Shown here in pieces: positions 1 to 52,602 of a stretch of 64,000 bases of DNA. A program made the translations under genes and the position numbers. This DNA comes from a virus: positions 1 through 64,000 of IMG/VR virus record IMGVR_UViG_3300006735_000030; one strand, 5' to 3'. The notes below the pieces were generated by a model. It did no database searches and had not been told where the DNA came from. It saw only the letters and a program-made list of their open reading frames with translations. Every line of letters begins with the position of its first letter. The stretch's first letter is position 1.

Positions 1-328
1 GGGAGTGACACTTGAAATGATGCATCCAACAATACCCTAATTTACCAGAGTCATCAGATACCTCTCCTGGCATACACTCTAACATTCTTGGTGATATATC
101 GAAAGCTACACAATTACCACATAGAGATTTGTTTACATTCTCTGGTTTGGTATTCCATTTCTTAGCTACTTTCTCCCAATAATCACCTGGGTTGTCTACA
201 TCTTGAGGCCCATAATTAAAATTTTTAGTAGTAGAGTCTCTATTCTTTGTATTTAACTCTACGTCTTTTGTTGCTGGTGGACACTCTTTGTAGTTTTCTC
301 CTAATAATATATCTTGTAATTTAATCAT
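1..328 (-). CDS. Partial Cys-containing small protein with a possible capsid-targeting leader
   Basis: The gene starts at 328 and runs off the low end of the window, so about 109 codons and no stop are visible. It begins MIKLQDILLGE, a leader shared with the genes starting at 1580, 1952 and 2412. The later part has CGNC, a further Cys, then CWMHHFKC, a spacing that could bind metal or an iron-sulfur cluster. The start abuts the stop of the gene at 329-706, so the two are probably co-translated. The function is unknown. The leader ends in L-x-E, the T4 prohead-protease cleavage pattern, so packaging as an internal head protein is possible; that is inference. Confidence 0.75.
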   Translation of the reverse strand, partial: MIKLQDILLGENYKECPPATKDVELNTKNRDSTTKNFNYGPQDVDNPGDYWEKVAKKWNTKPENVNKSLCGNCVAFDISPRMLECMPGEVSDDSGKLGYCWMHHFKCHS

Positions 329-706
329 TTAACTACCCTTACCAGTTCCACTCTTTTTACCACTACGTTTTGTATGTGTAGAAACACTCACTGGTTTTCT
401 ACCTTGTCCATGTTGTTTTTTACCACCACGTCCAGCTTTGTTTTGAGCCGCTCTCTTTCTTCTCGTAGCACTTTCCTTTTCTTTTTTGGTCATAGAAGCG
501 GCCTTTGAAGCAGGTACACATTTAGCATATCCTCTTTTGTCACCACTCGTACCACAAGCTGGATGTTTACCACTCTTGTCTTTCTTACCAATATTAACCC
601 ATTTGGATTTAAACCAATTTCTTAAATCTTCGTCAACAATATTTCCACAATGTATACAAGTGTGGTCTCGTATTACACCAACAATTAAAGCATCTTCTAA
701 CTTCAT
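329..706 (-). CDS. Small basic zinc-knuckle-like protein (DUF5872-like)
   Basis: This is a 125-residue, very basic protein. Near residues 17-20 it has a CIHC pair. The middle block (GKHPACG then YAKCVPASKA) resembles the small basic DUF5872-type proteins found in viruses, and the C-terminal 50 residues are rich in Lys, Arg and Gly. The composition suggests nucleic-acid binding, for example DNA condensation in the head, but no catalytic motif is seen. It overlaps the upstream gene by four bases (ATGA) and abuts the next gene, so it belongs to the same transcription unit as the proteins with the MIKL leader. Confidence 0.7.
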   Translation of the reverse strand: MKLEDALIVGVIRDHTCIHCGNIVDEDLRNWFKSKWVNIGKKDKSGKHPACGTSGDKRGYAKCVPASKAASMTKKEKESATRRKRAAQNKAGRGGKKQHGQGRKPVSVSTHTKRSGKKSGTGKGS

Positions 707-1245
707 TTTTTCAAACGACTCTTTTCAGCTCGTCCTCTATTTTTAGATTGAGATTCAAACCCTACAATTTTTCCCCCTTTGTGTGATGCATCTTTACCAT
801 CACCATTTCCATAAGTACCTTTCTTACGATTGTACTTATTTAATTCTGCTCTATATTTTTTAGATTTGGTGGAAGAACCATATTTTTTATATTCTTTCTT
901 GTAGTCTCTCAATGTACCTCTTGAATCTCTCTTCTTTGTTTCGATTAATTCTGAATCTTTCGTAAGTTTCTTCATCCTAACAGAGAACTCTATAAAATAT
1001 TTCTTGTAGAGTCTAGCTAACTCTAATCCCATCTTCTTATCTCTTTTACCAATAGAAAATATTTCTTTCTTCATACTATCGTTGAAACTATTAATAGTAT
1101 CCATGATACCTTCATTTACAGATTCAAACTTGTTCATAACTTTTTTAACTTTTTTGTTACCTTGTAAATCTAGCCAGATTTCTGGTTTGTACTTCTTAAT
1201 GTACAATAAGTAATCGAACATTTCTTTATCTGACATTTTTTTCAT
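703..1245 (-). CDS. Basic phage protein with Gly/Lys-rich C-terminal module
   Basis: The product is 180 residues, Lys-rich and largely helical, with an acidic-basic N-terminal two thirds. It ends in a conserved-looking module with YNRKKGTYGNGDGKD, SHKGG and NRGRAEKSRLKK. I recall this C-terminal module from small proteins of marine T4-like phages, where its function is not known. There is no signal peptide, membrane segment or enzyme motif. A basic protein next to candidate internal head proteins could bind packaged DNA; this is a guess from position and charge. Its stop overlaps the start of the 329-706 gene. Confidence 0.7.
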   Translation of the reverse strand: MKKMSDKEMFDYLLYIKKYKPEIWLDLQGNKKVKKVMNKFESVNEGIMDTINSFNDSMKKEIFSIGKRDKKMGLELARLYKKYFIEFSVRMKKLTKDSELIETKKRDSRGTLRDYKKEYKKYGSSTKSKKYRAELNKYNRKKGTYGNGDGKDASHKGGKIVGFESQSKNRGRAEKSRLKK

Positions 1246-1250
1246 AGGAT

Positions 1251-1580
1251 TTAGATTTTATCCATTATCCTTTTGATTTGTTTCAACATCTTATGAGTAC
1301 CTTGAGCATTCTGAAATACACCATAGTCCTCACCAACTTTGACTAACTCATCAATTTGGTCTCTTAGGTCATATTTCATCTGTCTCCATATTTTAGATGT
1401 TATCTTATCTTCTGGAACTACTTTGATATTACTTTCAACCAATGACTCTTCTTCTTTTACTTCTTCTTTATCACTATTATGGTTTTGCATAATACTCTGA
1501 AGTGTTGGTAAAGAGTCACCAAATTTTCTACCTTCAAATCCAGGTGTACCTTCTTTTATTAATTTTTTCAATTTAATCAT
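1251..1580 (-). CDS. Small protein with MIKLKKLIKE leader
   Basis: The protein is 109 residues, starting at the second of two adjacent ATG codons; the SD GGAG then sits six bases away, and the product matches the MIKL start of its neighbours. Residues 1-10 are MIKLKKLIKE, ending in I-x-E as in T4 capsid-targeting leaders cut by gp21. The body is charged and helical with no domain I recognise. It lies in a row of small genes with the same leader at 328, 1952 and 2412. The function is unknown; an internal head protein is the working hypothesis. Confidence 0.7.
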   Translation of the reverse strand: MIKLKKLIKEGTPGFEGRKFGDSLPTLQSIMQNHNSDKEEVKEEESLVESNIKVVPEDKITSKIWRQMKYDLRDQIDELVKVGEDYGVFQNAQGTHKMLKQIKRIMDKI

Positions 1581-1589
1581 CATTGTCTC

Positions 1590-1649
1590 CTAACAATCGC
1601 AACAGTTACATTCACAAGATTCACACTTGCAGTTTTCACATCCACACAT
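1590..1649 (-). CDS. 19-residue Cys-rich metallothionein-like microprotein
   Basis: This is a 20-codon frame (MCGCENCKCESCECNCCDC) with nine cysteines in 19 residues, arranged mostly as CxC and CxxC with one CC pair. An SD AGGAG lies seven bases before its ATG, and its stop overlaps the SD region of the next gene (start 1580), which argues that it is translated. The spacing is that of metallothioneins and metal-chelating peptides. It could bind zinc, copper or a soft-metal cluster. No family is claimed; the density of Cys in a frame with a good ribosome site is the evidence. Confidence 0.65.
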   Translation of the reverse strand: MCGCENCKCESCECNCCDC

Positions 1650-1658
1650 TTTATTCTC

Positions 1659-1952
1659 CTATAATACGCTGTAGATTATGTCAAAATTTGAAAACTTCTT
1701 CTTCAGTAGATTCATGAATGGTTTTTCCATATCATGTCTTACATCAGAAAGACCTTTTGGTAAGTGTCCTACTACATCTTGTATGTCCATTACACCTTGA
1801 TAGAATTTTACGTGTTGTTTACTACCAACAATTTTAGCTAATTCTAATCTAGCCATTGTATGATTGTTTCTATCAGTTAACAAACGAATCTTCTCAATGT
1901 AAGCTCCACCCATCTCTTGCTTTTCGTTTAATATGTTTTTTAACTTTATCAT
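1659..1952 (-). CDS. Small protein with MIKLKNILNE leader
   Basis: The frame is open upstream to 2006, but I place the start at the ATG at 1952 because it gives MIKLKNILNE, the leader shared by three neighbours, and sits just after the stop of the upstream gene at 1954. The product is 97 residues, helical and basic, with no domain I recognise. The leader ends in L-x-E, compatible with cleavage by a T4-type prohead protease. It is probably co-translated with the gene at 1954-2412. Confidence 0.7.
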   Translation of the reverse strand: MIKLKNILNEKQEMGGAYIEKIRLLTDRNNHTMARLELAKIVGSKQHVKFYQGVMDIQDVVGHLPKGLSDVRHDMEKPFMNLLKKKFSNFDIIYSVL

Positions 1953-1953
1953 C

Positions 1954-2412
1954 TTAGTCTTTAGGGTATCCATGTGTAGAGAATCCATCTGGAACAAGAC
2001 TAACATCTGTATATGGTTTTGGCCCTACTGGATGTATTTCAATCTTTTTGGATGTATCTTTACCACCAGTAACTTTCTTGAATCCAGCTTTCTTTAGTAT
2101 CTTAACAATTAATTTACCATCACCAGCCCAATTTAACATCATAGGTCGTGACCAATTGTTATGACCAGTAAAAGCAGAATCCATTGCTTGTTCATGAAAT
2201 CCAAACCAAGTTTTGTCTTCCCATTTCTTTGGTACTTTACCCATAATGTCTGAGTTGGTGTATCCAACTGGGTCTGTTTTATATTTTCTCCTTAGATGAG
2301 GACTCCAAGCTCCCATTCCGAGTACTATGTCCATGGCTTTTTCCCAACCATTTACAAAAACCCAACCATCTACGGATTTTCCTTCGTTTAATATTTCTTT
2401 TAATTTAATCAT
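1954..2412 (-). CDS. Protein with MIKLKEILNE leader, unknown function
   Basis: The product is 152 residues if started at the ATG at 2412, which has an SD GGAG seven bases upstream; an ATG two codons earlier is possible. It starts MIKLKEILNEG, the clearest copy of the shared leader. The body is rich in Trp and Gly (GWVFVNGWEKAMD, WGFHEQAMD-type helices, NWAGDG) and looks like a folded globular protein, unlike the charged neighbours. No catalytic motif is recognised. Packaging into the capsid through the leader is inferred from resemblance to T4 internal proteins. Confidence 0.7.
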   Translation of the reverse strand: MIKLKEILNEGKSVDGWVFVNGWEKAMDIVLGMGAWSPHLRRKYKTDPVGYTNSDIMGKVPKKWEDKTWFGFHEQAMDSAFTGHNNWSRPMMLNWAGDGKLIVKILKKAGFKKVTGGKDTSKKIEIHPVGPKPYTDVSLVPDGFSTHGYPKD

Positions 2413-3121: not shown

Positions 3122-3145
3122 CTCTAATATAAATATTAGTTAGAG
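3122..3145 (-). promoter_or_regulatory. Leader hairpin before the membrane microprotein
   Basis: The sequence CTCTAA at 3122-3127 can pair with TTAGAG at 3140-3145. An alternative pairing is CTAATAT at 3124-3130 with ATATTAG at 3133-3139. The hairpin is AT-rich, lacks a U run, and sits just upstream of the SD of the gene at 3011-3106. It may affect translation or RNA stability; nothing more can be said. Confidence 0.3.
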
Positions 3146-39136: not shown

Positions 39137-41893
39137 TTAGAAATTAACAGTAAGTCCTAAATTAAAACTTCTTGGTGTTCCAAGAAATACTTCAGCGTTA
39201 TGAGCTAAGTGCATCTTATCACCATACCCATTGTACTTACTATTGTCAACGGCATCTTGAACATAAACATCGTCAAGTGCGTTAAATAAATGACCATGTA
39301 AAGTCATATCAAGTCCTGCCATTTTAGGTAACCTATAAGCTACGTGTATGTCCATCTTACCATAAGACGGGGTTTTCCATACTTGTGCTCTGTCAGCATC
39401 ACCTTCAACTTCACGACTATCTGGACTCCAATCAGAATAATGATTGTCGTACCATCTATATAGACCTTGGACACTCAATCCTTCAATTGGTTTGATTGTT
39501 AAACCACCAACATAAGATGTCTGTGGCATATCACCAACTTTTAGATTGTTTAAAGCGTATTCATACTCAGTAGATGTTTGTCCAATGATTTGATTATCAT
39601 CATTGTATTCCATCTCTGTGTAGTCACCTTTAGCATCTCCATCAAAATACCAATCTCCAATACTAACGGCAACATCCAAGTCAACCATTTCATGTAGAGC
39701 GACTTTAGACTCAATCTCGAAACCACTATGACTTTGGTTTACACCAGTCAAATAAATGATGTCTGTGTCACCTGAGTCACCTTGACCAGTCGTAACTGAC
39801 TTTGTAAGGTTTCTGTCTTTCCATTGAGTGTTATAGTAACTACCTTTGATAGCAACTTTGTCACTTCTATATTCTCCACCAACTTCTGTAGATATGAATT
39901 TCTCATTGTCTGGGTTTGTGGATACATTCCCATCATAATCAATTACATTATCTAAGATTGGTGGTTTCTGTACGTAACCAGCATTAGCAAATGCAGATAA
40001 TCTGTCATCAAGATTATATCTAGCTCCACCCTTTGCTTGAAAGGTTGTGATAGCAGGAGCTTCAACAAAATTATCAATCTTGTTTCCATCCTCATCTACA
40101 TTAAGAGCGAAATGGTCTTCGTAAGTATATCCAATTGTAGATATACCACCCATACCATATAGATTTATCTTTTCAGTATCATATTTACCTTGTAGAAAAG
40201 CTCCTAACCAATTTACAGTAGTTTCGTTATGATACGCAATAATATCACCTAAACGAACAACTTTACCATCGGCCATATTGTCATCAGCGTAGTCTACATA
40301 GTAGTCTCCACCAAGTAAATCACGAACTTCTCTAGCGTGTTCTATACCAGCAGTTCTCCAATCAATACCAACTTGAACTTCAAGTTCATCTGAAACATCA
40401 TAGTTCAATTTAGAAATTAAACCATAAGTATCTTGTCTATTGATTGAGTTTCTAAGGATACCTGTGGAACGATTTTCAACATCAGAGAACGCAGAATCTA
40501 CATTAGCAGAGTTCTGAGCTATCTCAGCATTCCAATCCCAAGTCCAAGGTGAACTTGCATACCAAGGGTTTCCTTCTATCGCGGGTGTCCTACTTACGCT
40601 ACCATAAGTACCAGTTCCTCCACCAGAACCACCACTCCAATATAGTACTGAACTTAACCTCATGTCTTCATTGATATCATAAAAATGATTCAAGTTAACA
40701 AGTGGTTTATGAAAGAAGTTTTCTCTTTCATTTAGGAAGTTAGAACTATACCTATCGGTTGTACGAGCTCCGTACATATACCAATATTGTTGACCTTTAT
40801 AATCTGGGTCAATTGGTGCAACGTTTTGGTTAAGGAATCTACCAGCCTCGTGTTCGAACTTTTCTCCTTCAACATAAGCAGAATCGTTGTATCCATCAAT
40901 ACTACCTGCTAACTCTTGTGAATAAGTTGCGATATTCTGTTTATATAGATTCTGACCATGACGCTGTGGAGCACCAACAGCATACAACTCAAGTCTATGG
41001 TCATCGTTCATCTGATAACTTGTTCCAAGATAGTAAGCCCAAGCGTCTGTCCATGTTCCATCTATAAAACCATCACCAGTTTTACGAACAATCGTTCCAC
41101 TTATTGCTAACTTATCATTTAACATAAGTCCTGAGTTATAATTCAAAGTAGATTTAAGGAATCCACCTTCACCTACTTCTTGTTTTACTTTACCACCCTT
41201 CTCGTGTTGAGCTGGGTCGGTAATTATGTTCATAGTTCCACCAATAGATGGTGTAGCTAGATTAACAGCTGAAAGACCTCTTTGCATCTGAATTGAGGTT
41301 GTAGCATCACCTACTCCATCCCAATTAGACCAATAGACCCATCCGTTCTCCATATCATTTTGGGGAACACCATTTATCATCACGGCCACGTTTCTTTGGT
41401 TAAATCCACGAACATTGATACGAGCATCACCCGCACCACCACCTTGACCAGTCGCATATACACTTGGTGTAGTATTAAGAATCATTGGAATATCTTGTGA
41501 ACCAAGACGTAATTCCATTTCTTCTTTATCTACAGTAGTGTAAGCAACAGGTGTCGTTTCATCAGCTCTTGAAGCAAGAACCTCAAGTGCTGACATTGCA
41601 ACGACATCAGTTTCTAAAGTGAAACTAACACTCGCTACAATATCCCCAACACTAACAGATTTAGTCTGGGTTATGTAACCAATGTAAGAAGCTGTCACAT
41701 CAAAAGTACCAGTGCCAGTCTCAATAGTAAATTTACCTTCACTATCCGAGACCCCGCCTAAGTCTGTACCTTCAATAGTAACATTAGCTCCTACAAGTGG
41801 TTTATCGCCTTTACCAACGAATCCTGTAACGACTTGTCCGAAAACAAATCCGCTCATCATCACCAGTAAAGACATGAGATTACGATAATTCAT
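39137..41893 (-). CDS. TonB-dependent outer-membrane receptor with CarboxypepD_reg-like domain
   Basis: The 918-residue protein has a signal peptide (MNYRNLMSLLVMMSGFVFGQ) and a carboxypeptidase-regulatory-like beta-sandwich at residues 21-100 (GDKPLVGANVTIEGTDLGG). A plug domain at about 110-230 follows (RINVRGFNQRNVAVMINGVPQ, LATPSIGGTMNIIT). A 22-strand-type barrel follows, ending in the outer-membrane terminal Phe (FNLGLTVNF). Such receptors import siderophores, vitamin B12 or glycans using TonB energy. The frame is intact. Phage genes of the same strand lie on both sides, so it is cargo carried by the phage. The ligand is unknown. Confidence 0.93.
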   Translation of the reverse strand: MNYRNLMSLLVMMSGFVFGQVVTGFVGKGDKPLVGANVTIEGTDLGGVSDSEGKFTIETGTGTFDVTASYIGYITQTKSVSVGDIVASVSFTLETDVVAMSALEVLASRADETTPVAYTTVDKEEMELRLGSQDIPMILNTTPSVYATGQGGGAGDARINVRGFNQRNVAVMINGVPQNDMENGWVYWSNWDGVGDATTSIQMQRGLSAVNLATPSIGGTMNIITDPAQHEKGGKVKQEVGEGGFLKSTLNYNSGLMLNDKLAISGTIVRKTGDGFIDGTWTDAWAYYLGTSYQMNDDHRLELYAVGAPQRHGQNLYKQNIATYSQELAGSIDGYNDSAYVEGEKFEHEAGRFLNQNVAPIDPDYKGQQYWYMYGARTTDRYSSNFLNERENFFHKPLVNLNHFYDINEDMRLSSVLYWSGGSGGGTGTYGSVSRTPAIEGNPWYASSPWTWDWNAEIAQNSANVDSAFSDVENRSTGILRNSINRQDTYGLISKLNYDVSDELEVQVGIDWRTAGIEHAREVRDLLGGDYYVDYADDNMADGKVVRLGDIIAYHNETTVNWLGAFLQGKYDTEKINLYGMGGISTIGYTYEDHFALNVDEDGNKIDNFVEAPAITTFQAKGGARYNLDDRLSAFANAGYVQKPPILDNVIDYDGNVSTNPDNEKFISTEVGGEYRSDKVAIKGSYYNTQWKDRNLTKSVTTGQGDSGDTDIIYLTGVNQSHSGFEIESKVALHEMVDLDVAVSIGDWYFDGDAKGDYTEMEYNDDNQIIGQTSTEYEYALNNLKVGDMPQTSYVGGLTIKPIEGLSVQGLYRWYDNHYSDWSPDSREVEGDADRAQVWKTPSYGKMDIHVAYRLPKMAGLDMTLHGHLFNALDDVYVQDAVDNSKYNGYGDKMHLAHNAEVFLGTPRSFNLGLTVNF

Positions 41894-49110: not shown

Positions 49111-49446
49111 TTATTTAAATAATATTGGTAATTGGTAGTTTACTTTTACTGGTATTCCATTTTGTTTAGCTGGTTCGAATTTAATTGCCATAACTCTGTC
49201 TATTATAGCATCATTTAGAGCTATATTAAATGTATCCATAATGTATGGTTCTACAATTCTACCATTTTCATCTACTGTAAATTTTACTAAAACCTTTCCT
49301 CTAAGTTCAGAAGTATCTATTTTTGAAATATGGTCATAACTTAAATGAAATGGTTTTTTCATTATTGGTCGTTGTTGATTCCCACCCGTTGGTAAGTCTT
49401 GGGCTACCAACAAGCCCATTAGTAATAAACACAAAAGGTGCCTCAT
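49111..49446 (-). CDS. Exported TonB C-terminal-domain protein
   Basis: I start at ATG 49446, where an SD GGAG is present; the frame is open further to 49488. The 111-residue protein has a signal peptide (MRHLLCLLLMGLLVAQ) and then one TonB_C-type domain: GKVLVKFTVDENGRIVEPYI, IIDRVMAIKFEPAKQNGIPVKVNYQLPILF. There is no inner-membrane anchor that would remain and no Pro-rich spacer, unlike TonB itself. If the signal is cleaved, the product would be a free periplasmic TonB domain. It is last in the pilin cargo operon. Confidence 0.8.
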   Translation of the reverse strand: MRHLLCLLLMGLLVAQDLPTGGNQQRPIMKKPFHLSYDHISKIDTSELRGKVLVKFTVDENGRIVEPYIMDTFNIALNDAIIDRVMAIKFEPAKQNGIPVKVNYQLPILFK

Positions 49447-49516
49447 ATTGTTCTCCGCAATTGATTGATTAACTCCTTTCGTCTTCAAAAATATATATAA
49501 ACATTTTTTAAAAAAT

Positions 49517-50143: not shown

Positions 50144-50565
50144 AATACTTCTATCTCTGTACCTATACCTCTTTTATCGTGGTCTGTTCCAACTACTATT
50201 GTATAGTATCCTGGGTCTACATCAGATGTCCATTCAGTTCTGTAAAGTTTCCAAACATATGTTTCTGTTCGTTCTCTACCATCACGAAATCTATCTAATG
50301 CTAGTGGTGTTTGGTGAACTAATTTACCATTGAAATCAAACATATATAATCTTGTTTTATCCCTCTGTACTTTGTATCTAATCTTTACACAAGGGCCACC
50401 TTTTCTGTCATAAGCTCTCCAAGCTACTATCGGTGTTTCATCAAAATATTCCATTGATGGTGGTTTTACTTTTGGTATTTCATTTGGGTCTGGTCTGAAA
50501 AACACATACCCAAAACATAAAGCTATTCCAATGTATAGTAAGTATTCTTTTATTTGTTCATTCAT
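50140..50565 (-). CDS. Membrane-anchored protein with FlgD-like Ig domain
   Basis: The 141-residue protein has one N-terminal hydrophobic span (YLLYIGIALCFGYVFF) and then a beta-rich domain with RLYMFDFNGKLVHQTPLALDRFRDG and WTSDVDPGYYTIVVGTDHDKRG. The last part resembles FlgD/T9SS-type Ig modules used in exported and surface proteins. It sits between the pseudopilins and the periplasmic protein, overlapping each by a few bases, so it is probably part of the same envelope system. Confidence 0.6.
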   Translation of the reverse strand: MNEQIKEYLLYIGIALCFGYVFFRPDPNEIPKVKPPSMEYFDETPIVAWRAYDRKGGPCVKIRYKVQRDKTRLYMFDFNGKLVHQTPLALDRFRDGRERTETYVWKLYRTEWTSDVDPGYYTIVVGTDHDKRGIGTEIEVL

Positions 50566-51005
50566 TATTGTGCTATATACCTCACTGGTTCTTCTGCTAA
50601 TTCAAATGATGTAGAGTCATATGTGTAATAATAAATCTCATCGTCAGGTCTTTGATGAAAGATAGCAGGTTCTCCTGCATCAATCAAACTAAACTGCCAT
50701 TCATTATCTTCATCAGGTACACCCAACTCTAAATTTATTTTCAAATTACGGGTTCTACCAAATGTTGTTAATGGATTGAATGGCCAATTTTCAGTTCCAG
50801 TCTCTAATAGTTTATCACTTGCATATTGTTCACATCCTGCCCATATTGTGTTTACTGTAGTCTTTTCAGCTCTTACTGACGCTTTATGTAATACATGAGT
50901 CATCTTAGGTACTGCAACAGCGGCTAATATTCCTAAGATGACCATAACCATTACTAATTCTACTAAAGAAAAACCTTCATTCATTTTCTCTTTCAGTATT
51001 TTCAT
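50565..51005 (-). CDS. Type II/IV pseudopilin 1
   Basis: The 146-residue protein has the prepilin peptidase site MNEG/FSLVELVMVMVILGILAAVAVP at residues 8-33, with Gly before the cut and Glu at position +5 of the mature form. A hydrophobic helix and a C-terminal globular domain follow, with a WPFNP segment as in its two sisters. It should be exported by the Sec system and assembled like a pilin if a prepilin peptidase (host or phage) is available. Confidence 0.9.
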   Translation of the reverse strand: MKILKEKMNEGFSLVELVMVMVILGILAAVAVPKMTHVLHKASVRAEKTTVNTIWAGCEQYASDKLLETGTENWPFNPLTTFGRTRNLKINLELGVPDEDNEWQFSLIDAGEPAIFHQRPDDEIYYYTYDSTSFELAEEPVRYIAQ

Positions 51006-51016
51006 TATTCTTTATC

Positions 51017-51481
51017 CTAATCCAAATCAGGTCTATATACTACCTGGTCTGGTTGATATGGTGGATTGGAATACCCAATCTCACCTGTTGTTGAATTATA
51101 AGTCCATATTGCTAGACTATCTTCTTTTCTTCTATGAACAATTCGATTTTTGAAATCATTACTCTTATCAGCAGTAAATATCCAATCACTATCGTCCATT
51201 TCTTTCATCATAACGGTTCCACTTTTGTCGTAATATTGTGGTACTTTATTTAAAGCATCAAAAGGATTATCTGGCCACTTCATAACACCATTGTCAATAA
51301 ACTCTTCTTGACTATAAGTATCTAAAGCGGCGACTAAATTAACAAGTACTCCTTGTTCAGAAGCCGCTTCAGATTGTCTTACGATATTAGTGAATCTCGG
51401 AATGGAGACTGCGGCTAATATACCAATGATTACCATTACCATAATAAGTTCAACTAAGGTAAATCCGTTTTTATTGTCCAC
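51017..51481 (-). CDS. Type II/IV pseudopilin 2
   Basis: The 154-residue protein has NKNG/FTLVELIMVMVIIGILAAVSIP near its start, with Glu +5. The globular part includes MKWPDNPFDALNKVPQYY and a late DWIFTADKSND, shared in pattern with pseudopilin 3. It overlaps pseudopilin 3 by 11 bases. These are paralogs made by tandem duplication. Confidence 0.9.
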   Translation of the reverse strand: MDNKNGFTLVELIMVMVIIGILAAVSIPRFTNIVRQSEAASEQGVLVNLVAALDTYSQEEFIDNGVMKWPDNPFDALNKVPQYYDKSGTVMMKEMDDSDWIFTADKSNDFKNRIVHRRKEDSLAIWTYNSTTGEIGYSNPPYQPDQVVYRPDLD

Positions 51482-51923
51482 TTACCAGACTTTCTCTACT
51501 GCCTAATGTACCAGTAGTATCTGTGTCTGTTCCTGTGTTGATTCCAGCATCATATTCCCACTTCCACCTCGTGTTATCAGAACGTTGGTGAGTAATATAT
51601 GCGGGGTCACCATCCACAAATGTCCACTCATTGTCGGTATCAGCATTTGTACCATCAGTTGTGTATGTTTGTGGTTTGTCCTTTAAAGCGTCAAATGGAT
51701 TATCTGGCCATATAGCTCTTCCACTATCTATGAGTTTATGAACTCCGTAGTTTTCAAGTGCTACACTAATATTACTTATGACTGCATCTTCGGAAGCTTC
51801 TTCAGCTTTCTCGATAGTCTCTAAGTATCGTGGAATTGCAACAGCTGATAATACTCCTAAGATTATCATCACCATTATCAATTCGATTAATGTAAAACCA
51901 TCATTTGATTTTTTTATTTTCAT
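51471..51923 (-). CDS. Type II/IV pseudopilin 3
   Basis: The 150-residue protein has SNDG/FTLIELIMVMIILGVLSAVAIPRY at its N terminus with Glu +5. It has AIWPDNPFDALKDKPQTYT in the middle and a C-terminal Thr/Gly/Asp-rich tail. It is the closest paralog of pseudopilin 2. Confidence 0.9.
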   Translation of the reverse strand: MKIKKSNDGFTLIELIMVMIILGVLSAVAIPRYLETIEKAEEASEDAVISNISVALENYGVHKLIDSGRAIWPDNPFDALKDKPQTYTTDGTNADTDNEWTFVDGDPAYITHQRSDNTRWKWEYDAGINTGTDTDTTGTLGSRESLVSGQ

Positions 51924-51960: not shown

Positions 51961-52602
51961 TTAAGGTACTAAAGTTTTATTTAGTTCTGCGGGATTCTCT
52001 GTGTCTATTACGACAAGAGCAGGTGCTTGAGCATCTGTACCACTACCACTACCTGGTATTACTAAGTAAGCGTATGAACCATCCTGGAATGGGGATGATA
52101 TTCCGTTGTTACCAAAGTCTTTTTTGAAGTCTAATGCTCCATCAGTATCAAATACTACTGAAGTTTCAAGGTTCATCCAATTACCTTGTAAAGCGTCATC
52201 GTCATCTGAAGCAGTTGAGAATATGTAAACAAACTCACCTAAATCTGATTCATAGTTTTCTTTAGAATCAAGAATAGTTTCCATGTAGATTTCTAAAGCT
52301 TCATCTGTAAGTTGTCCTTCAGACAATGTAACACCACCAACTGGTTGGTCATATTTTGATTGTCCAGGAAATCTTCCCTTACCCTCTTCGGATAATGTTT
52401 GGTTATAAAAATTGTTAGCAACTGTTACAATCTTGTCAATGTTTGCTATAGTTTTCTTTTCTTTAGCACCAGCACCGATTTGTCCAAATTTTGGAGCGGC
52501 TGTTGTAGCAAGTGTTGCCATCATAGCGGTAGTAACAGCAAATTCAGCAAGTGAATTACCTTTGTTACTCTTTATTCTTTTAAATAATTTTGTGAACTTC
52601 AT
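51961..52602 (-). CDS. Variant pilin-like protein (pseudopilin 4)
   Basis: The 213-residue protein has KSNKG/NSLAEFAVTTAMMATLATTAAP near residue 15, a prepilin-like signal with Glu at +5 and a hydrophobic helix rich in Ala and Thr in place of Val and Ile. The rest is beta-rich and acidic with ALDFKKDFGNNG and a final SGTDAQAPALVVID. It may be the major subunit or a minor pilin of the same apparatus. It is first in the operon and has an SD AAGGAAC. Confidence 0.7.
   Translation of the reverse strand: MKFTKLFKRIKSNKGNSLAEFAVTTAMMATLATTAAPKFGQIGAGAKEKKTIANIDKIVTVANNFYNQTLSEEGKGRFPGQSKYDQPVGGVTLSEGQLTDEALEIYMETILDSKENYESDLGEFVYIFSTASDDDDALQGNWMNLETSVVFDTDGALDFKKDFGNNGISSPFQDGSYAYLVIPGSGSGTDAQAPALVVIDTENPAELNKTLVP

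Follow-up and report, generated by a model that had tools for sequence, protein, structure and literature searches.

A short N-terminal leader of the form MIKLKxILxE, shared by four otherwise unrelated genes of the virus record IMGVR_UViG_3300006735_000030 (IMG/VR; 68,802 bases, classed as linear and possibly a fragment), is in all likelihood (probability about 0.82) the capsid-targeting propeptide of a marine T4-like phage, which would be removed by the prohead protease. The window, i.e., the whole stretch of DNA analyzed, comprises bases 1-64000 of this record and contains T4-type replication genes and a tail region, all names being given by reading except for gp44. The N-termini MIKL-x-x-(I/L)-(L/I)-x-E belong to four minus-strand genes starting at 2412, 1952, 1580, and 328. 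A preceding sequence-only reading had described them as MIKLKEILNE, MIKLKNILNE, MIKLKKLIKE, and MIKLQDILLGE, respectively, on bodies without mutual relatedness, and both statements hold, as no similarity was seen between the four bodies in the window. All four leaders end in L/I-x-E, with Glu at position 10, but at 11 in gene 328. As estimated from the amino acid composition of the window, 0.035 MIKL starts would be expected by chance among 79 greedy minus-strand genes versus the four observed (Poisson P about 6e-8, or 1e-14 if [LI]-x-E at position 10 or 11 is demanded as well). The four copies are separated by synonymous base differences and are therefore not simply one copied 5' end. In the case of genes 1580, 1952, and 2412, the listed open reading frames (ORFs) start 1 to 18 codons upstream of the MIKL ATG, which is taken as the start because the leader aligns there in relatives.

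The same reading had proposed that these genes encode a set of capsid-targeted proteins injected together with the phage DNA. Its first part, targeting and cutting after L/I-x-E, is well supported in comparative terms by the spacing known from T4 capsid-targeting sequences (CTS), the association of homologues with head operons, the Glu conserved at the joints of modules, the gp23 site, and mass spectrometry of cyanophage virions. As to the second part, injection with the DNA is inferred, and some of the small proteins may be parts of the prohead core.

Occurrence and retention of the leader

Searching a viral collection with a degenerate DNA pattern for the leader gave at least 119 stretches, and of the 88 pattern matches in the 80 viral loci that were read, 87 begin an open frame with 40 codons or more. 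In cellular genomes, this pattern yielded 41 matches in 40 stretches; 17 of the matches begin a frame of such length, and eight matches in seven contigs resemble true leader genes. The fetched loci contain 215 distinct strict-leader proteins with bodies of 115 families (210 with 110 after subtraction of five chance loci), and nearly all of them lie on viral contigs. A Pfam search with 107 sequences, consisting of the four window proteins and 103 family representatives, matched 36 families at E values up to 0.001; the domains found on leader bodies include ART-PolyVal (ADP-ribosyltransferase, ART), NUDIX, HD, a Zeta_toxin-type kinase, RNase_T (exonuclease), Phage_lysozyme, RimK ATP-grasp, and Peptidase_M23.

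Relatives of the window genes were also sought by their bodies, leaving out the leader, and were found in 15 distinct contigs. The leader is kept in six of nine contigs for gene 1580, in both contigs for gene 2412, and throughout for gene 1952 (Table 1), with one relative of the latter (L270) carrying an insertion before PLTE. An alignment of nine 1952-type proteins (that of the window, seven found by body, and L100, found by its leader) shows invariant residues at 6 of 10 positions in the leader versus 14 of 87 in the body. A gp21 homologue is present in the fetched flanks of nine of the 15 contigs (L271, L272, L273, L275, L276, L277, L279, L280, and L281, of which L271 and L272 look alike), and most of these also show portal, gp22-like, or gp23 genes nearby. 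In these contigs, gp17, gp20, and gp22 were named by reading and from the order of the genes, whereas gp21 was identified through PF03420 in the parent contig G010 and gp23 through PHROGs. Among 28 long contigs, PF03420 (S77 protease) occurs in 11, all of which belong to the 22 chosen by the leader (11/22), with none among the six chosen by gp44 (0/6).

The individual window genes add to this picture. Homologues of gene 328 occur in six phage records, where they are annotated as 'high potential iron-sulfur protein', and one homologue carries the leader as MIKLQNILIE/LEGKCPEATQD (L088; here and below, a slash marks the joint or cut). The isolate search, made with genes 328 and 2412, gave no homologue of gene 2412 among phage isolates. 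The leaderless gene 329-706 reads IVDE/DLRNWFKSKW at the corresponding site, to be compared with MIRLIDLLDE/DLRKWFGKGK in L062 and MIRLVDLLSE/DLRRWVKEKW in G018; it also has phrog_727 in common with the virion protein gp160 of cyanophage S-CREM2, the direct BLAST match being weak. An AlphaFold2 model of the 1952 protein reached a mean pLDDT (predicted local distance difference test) of 91, with the first ten-residue block, the leader, at 58 and thus far less confident than the folded body; a structure search with this model retrieved nothing from the PDB at E below 0.001 and a single, unnamed match of viral origin. For the 2412 protein, only a poor model was obtained (mean pLDDT 37), which was not used.

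Joints between bodies and polyprotein-like genes

The bodies are not tied to the leader, and the sequence in front of them provides a test of the predicted cut site. The second module of gene 1580, which is preceded by SLVES in the window, follows straight behind a leader in L276 (MIKLKELLNE/NIKVIPEDK) in a gene adjoining gp21, the first module of gene 1580 precedes the 1952 body in L271, and the 1952 body is preceded by a different module plus NVNE in L275. A comparison of the leader bodies against every open frame in the fetched loci gave 160 places with other upstream sequence, or 102 once leader-like strings had been removed. In 43 cases the alignment begins with the first residue of the body; 18 of these have [LIVM]-x-E precisely at the joint, compared with a mean of 1.3 over 40 other offsets, and 22 have Glu there. 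With weighting by family and alignments from residue 1 or 2, the value is 10.85 of 26 at the joint versus at most 3.61 elsewhere; offsets +3 to +5 are partly raised, in part because the true joint of one family seemingly lies four residues further on. The kinase body alone is preceded by ILNE, ILKE, VISE, NVNE, FLNE, EVTE, and others. The 1470 frames of at least 150 aa contain 74 joints of the type ES[VIL][NKT]E, whereas shuffling of the proteins leaves 8.4 and scrambling of the motif gives 6-12.

One example is a polyprotein-like module chain of 1301 aa adjoining the terminase gene in G010 (L211:4269-8174 (-)), whose modules are joined at [LIVM]-x-E sites. They comprise a kinase similar to the Zeta-toxin-type one of L045, a nucleotidyltransferase, and one further module in which a ligase-like KLDG motif was recognized by eye; the reading of the latter as 'RNA ligase' is likewise by eye, and Pfam found nothing in its stand-alone form. 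Since the same joint occurs in such polyproteins, bodies can shuffle between stand-alone leader genes and polyproteins. The 1301-aa chain may fit the description of polyvalent proteins, i.e., multidomain polypeptides of conflict-related domains predicted to be virion-borne.

Comparison with T4, polyvalent proteins, and cyanophage virions

In sequence-level tests, the leader conforms to a T4 capsid-targeting sequence. It agrees position by position with the leader MKTYQEFIAE of the T4 internal proteins IPII and IPIII in its ten residues, the hydrophobic residues at positions 4, 7, and 8, and Glu at position 10. According to the accessible sections of PMC9026906, residues 4 and 7 of the T4 leader serve in targeting and residues 8 and 10 are needed for cutting, while the propeptide of T4 gp23 comprises 65 residues. 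As in IPI, IPII, and IPIII, an L/I-x-E site, predicted here to be cut, is combined with diverse bodies sharing only the leader, which is what the accessible sections of PMC3012670 and PMC9026906 describe for these proteins, the former also for T-even internal proteins in general. The differences lie in the letters (MIKLKDILNE versus MKTYQEFIAE), the 110 body families, the enzymes among the bodies, the shuffling of bodies into polyprotein-like genes, and the origin from environmental phages. The start of T4 gp24, MAKINELLRE/STTT, which we take to be cut after MAKINELLRE, is also close to MAKLKNLLNE and MIKLKDILNE, although T4 gp23 and gp24 are shell proteins, unlike the leader bodies. The gp23 of the phages studied here retains the T4 propeptide site: the column of T4 gp23 residue 65 shows [LIVM]-x-E in 28 of 29 capsid rows (T4 gp23 and gp24 included), the other row being truncated.

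A further likeness exists to the polyvalent proteins and head-packaged ARTs of Iyer, Aravind, and colleagues, for which entry of the multidomain effectors together with the phage DNA is predicted (accessible sections of PMC9503650 and PMC5512222), and ART-PolyVal is one of the leader bodies as well. In those systems, as far as these sections describe them, the effectors are released by embedded peptidase domains or packaged by fusion to MuF or head proteins, whereas the short leaders and [LIVM]-x-E joints described here would suit a separate gp21-type protease.

Evidence from virions comes from isolated cyanophages and the rule of hydrophobic residues at positions 4, 7, and 8 and Glu at position 10. 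The virion proteome of S-CREM2 lists 52 genes (PMC10665884), thus covering 52 of the 219 genes counted in this phage. Six annotated starts obey the rule (gp6, gp13, gp14, gp136, gp154, and gp175; six more matches are not annotated starts), and five of these genes are in the virion proteome, gp175 alone being undetected (Fisher P 0.003 for all genes and 0.0002 without 24 structural proteins). Later checks added the S-CRM01 kinase (MISFDQFLSE), reported in virions according to PMC10665884, and a T4-GC190 protein of S-SM2 (MKSFFQFLSE), whose family was detected in S-SM1 virions according to the accessible sections of PMC3037559. In two more relatives, the leader is shorter by one or two residues, namely MKKFSEIIE/A in Melnitz and MKSLKIFE/A in MA01. 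The virion enzymes of S-CREM2, S-CRM01, and S-SM1 (kinase, SAM (S-adenosylmethionine) hydrolase, and cytidylyltransferase) resemble the leader proteins in that their own N-termini or those of close relatives obey the rule, but the letters differ from the MIKL form (e.g., MKxFxxFLxE), and virion detection applies to the cyanophage form alone. No packaging signal for these enzymes is given in the accessible sections of PMC10665884 and PMC3037559.

A possible late-positioned leader may be present in S-CREM2 gp12 (L290:7704-10313 (-)), a virion-detected protein annotated as Cas9-like, which shows LRFASFMAE/A about 25 residues from its start. S-CRM01 g128 and phage MA01 show this arrangement as well.

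Proposed mechanism, alternatives, and neighboring features

In the mechanism we propose, the leader proteins would be made late, and each would bind the growing prohead core via the hydrophobic residues 4, 7, and 8 of its leader. The gp21-type S77 prohead protease is then predicted to cut after Glu-10 (L/I-x-E), leaving the body inside the head, from where many mature bodies would probably pass into the host along with the DNA. The [LIVM]-x-E joint would also separate the modules of the longer polyprotein-like genes. It is an evenly balanced proposition whether this extends to a general plug-in delivery system of marine T4-like phages, in which modules bounded by [LIVM]-x-E are encoded either as single zip-coded genes or as polyproteins diced in the head, so that one protease would remodel the shell and process a large, fast-changing set of injected effectors, and the leader would predict packaged proteins from raw environmental sequence.

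Several observations weigh against the propeptide interpretation. The gp21 gene, which the sequence-only reading had suggested looking for in the rest of the genome, was not found in the 68.8-kb record, possibly a fragment, by a search whose control gave no signal anywhere. The leader genes do not cluster near gp21 in the ten whole contigs containing it (6 of 29 within 6 kb versus 6.3 expected), and the idea that all leader genes are head-operon genes was dropped. The leader is missing in 3 of the 19 cases of homologues found by body. In its strict form it is also absent from 35 gp44-selected loci (398 kb, with one loose in-frame match) and from G023 and G028, two contigs not selected by the leader. 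The codons AAA GAC ATA at positions 5-7 are over-used in the 210 leader genes compared with their own bodies (GACATA encodes 69% of D-I in leaders versus 8% in bodies), and leader conservation is therefore mostly, but not wholly, at the protein level. As to the cyanophages, the exact rule was fixed after the S-CREM2 N-termini had been seen, though its positions come from T4, and the S-CREM2 table contains no N-termini, gp13 rests on one peptide, and the authors allow for contamination (PMC10665884).

A possible but on the whole rather unlikely alternative is that the leader indeed targets the prohead core and is cut, but that most window bodies are core or scaffold parts comparable to T4 gp67, gp68, and gp22, or DNA-binding head fillers, which act in assembly and are not injected. 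This would agree with homologues of genes 1580 and 1952 being located in the region of the core genes, close to gp21 and upstream of gp22/gp23, and with window bodies that are small, helical or basic, and devoid of enzyme domains. The same leader heads NUDIX, ART, kinase, HD, and exonuclease bodies in relatives, which are unlikely scaffolds, and leader genes are scattered over the genome, not confined to the head operon. We consider it quite improbable that the leader has some other N-terminal purpose, such as membrane or polar targeting, a degron, or an optimal translation start, with Glu-10 being incidental: the A-rich start region and the non-random codons 5-7 would be in line with this, but Glu and the hydrophobic residue two positions before it recur at the same body joint behind entirely different upstream sequence, Glu is the most common residue at position 10 among starts with hydrophobic residues at 4, 7, and 8 (38 versus 18 for the next residue, a count subject to selection bias), and the leader matches the T4 CTS rule and the virion data. 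Functionless copying of one 5' end onto several genes by recent duplication or gene conversion is hardly credible, since a DNA identity a little above expectation among leaders with the same peptide (0.842 versus 0.802 expected) is set against 162 different 24-mers among 210 leaders, the synonymous differences in the window, and retention of the leader in 16 of 19 homologue cases found by body, distant ones included.

The packaged proteins of environmental phages are almost unknown, because few of these phages are cultured and virion proteomes are rare. Under the propeptide interpretation, a ten-residue label with a checkable cut site would turn the finding of packaged proteins into a sequence search, marking likely virus-particle proteins, some of them probably injected into bacteria, and nominating about 110 body families, most of them without any function, as packaged cargo. 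It would also offer a mechanism for the presence of kinases, SAM hydrolases, and nucleotidyltransferases in cyanophage particles, where the packaging signal is unexplained, and provides ready-made pairs of leader and protease to test in T4. No published descriptions of this leader or of prohead-protease polyproteins in marine phages were found in the open-licence literature (without supplements). As far as these searches show, what is new is the type of leader, how widely it occurs, and the shuffled form in polyproteins, while diverse internal proteins sharing a CTS were already known.

The features of the leader cluster are listed in Table 1, together with a TATTTATA box, the reverse complement of the T4 late box. 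The 80 bases preceding the gene contain this box in 25 of 206 leader genes, 7 of 29 gp20 genes, and 3 of 30 gp17 genes, compared with 0 of 92 replication genes (gp43, gp44, gp45, uvsX, and gp41), 0 of 26 gp23 genes, 0 of 41 gp21 genes, 1 of 14 reductase genes, and 0 of 3 thyX genes. A role of the box as a late promoter is possible and would be in keeping with genes for virion proteins.

Table 1. Coordinates of the leader genes and adjacent features in the window.
Feature	Position	Strand	Remarks
TATTTATA box	3128..3135	(-)	upstream of the small-gene run leading to the leader cluster
Leader MIKLKEILNE of gene 1954-2412	2383..2412	(-)	L267 orthologue has MIRLKDVLNE
Leader gene, 152 aa	1954..2412	(-)	body without Pfam or PHROG family; 2 contigs carry relatives
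Leader MIKLKNILNE of gene 1659-1952	1923..1952	(-)	kept in 8/8 contigs found by body alone
Leader gene, 97 aa, all-helical body	1659..1952	(-)	homologues in head operons L271-L273
Leader MIKLKKLIKE of gene 1251-1580	1551..1580	(-)	
Leader gene, 109 aa: RKFGDSLPTL module, then NIKVVPEDK module	1251..1580	(-)	
Modular gene, 180 aa; internal ESVNE/G site at 1125-1111	703..1245	(-)	homologous modules in head-operon ORFs of L271, L273, L276
Gene without leader; basic, Cys-containing; body after IVDE (residue 26)	329..706	(-)	same body behind leader elsewhere
Leader MIKLQDILLGE of gene 1-328	296..328	(-)	
Leader gene cut by record end, 109 residues seen	1..328	(-)	

Further genes were noticed in other parts of the window. 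At 50565-51923 (-), three genes resembling those of type IV pilins stand in tandem and show methylation motifs at the N-terminus; a fourth one at 51961-52602 was recognized by eye only and has no Pfam match. A TonB-dependent-receptor-like gene (Plug and carboxypeptidase-regulatory domains; 39137-41893 (-)) and a gene for a TonB C-terminal domain (49111-49488 (-)) in the same record represent unusual phage cargo. As judged by reading, a very long run of sugar and glycosyltransferase-like genes (5801-26746 (-)) extends between the replication genes and the leader cluster.

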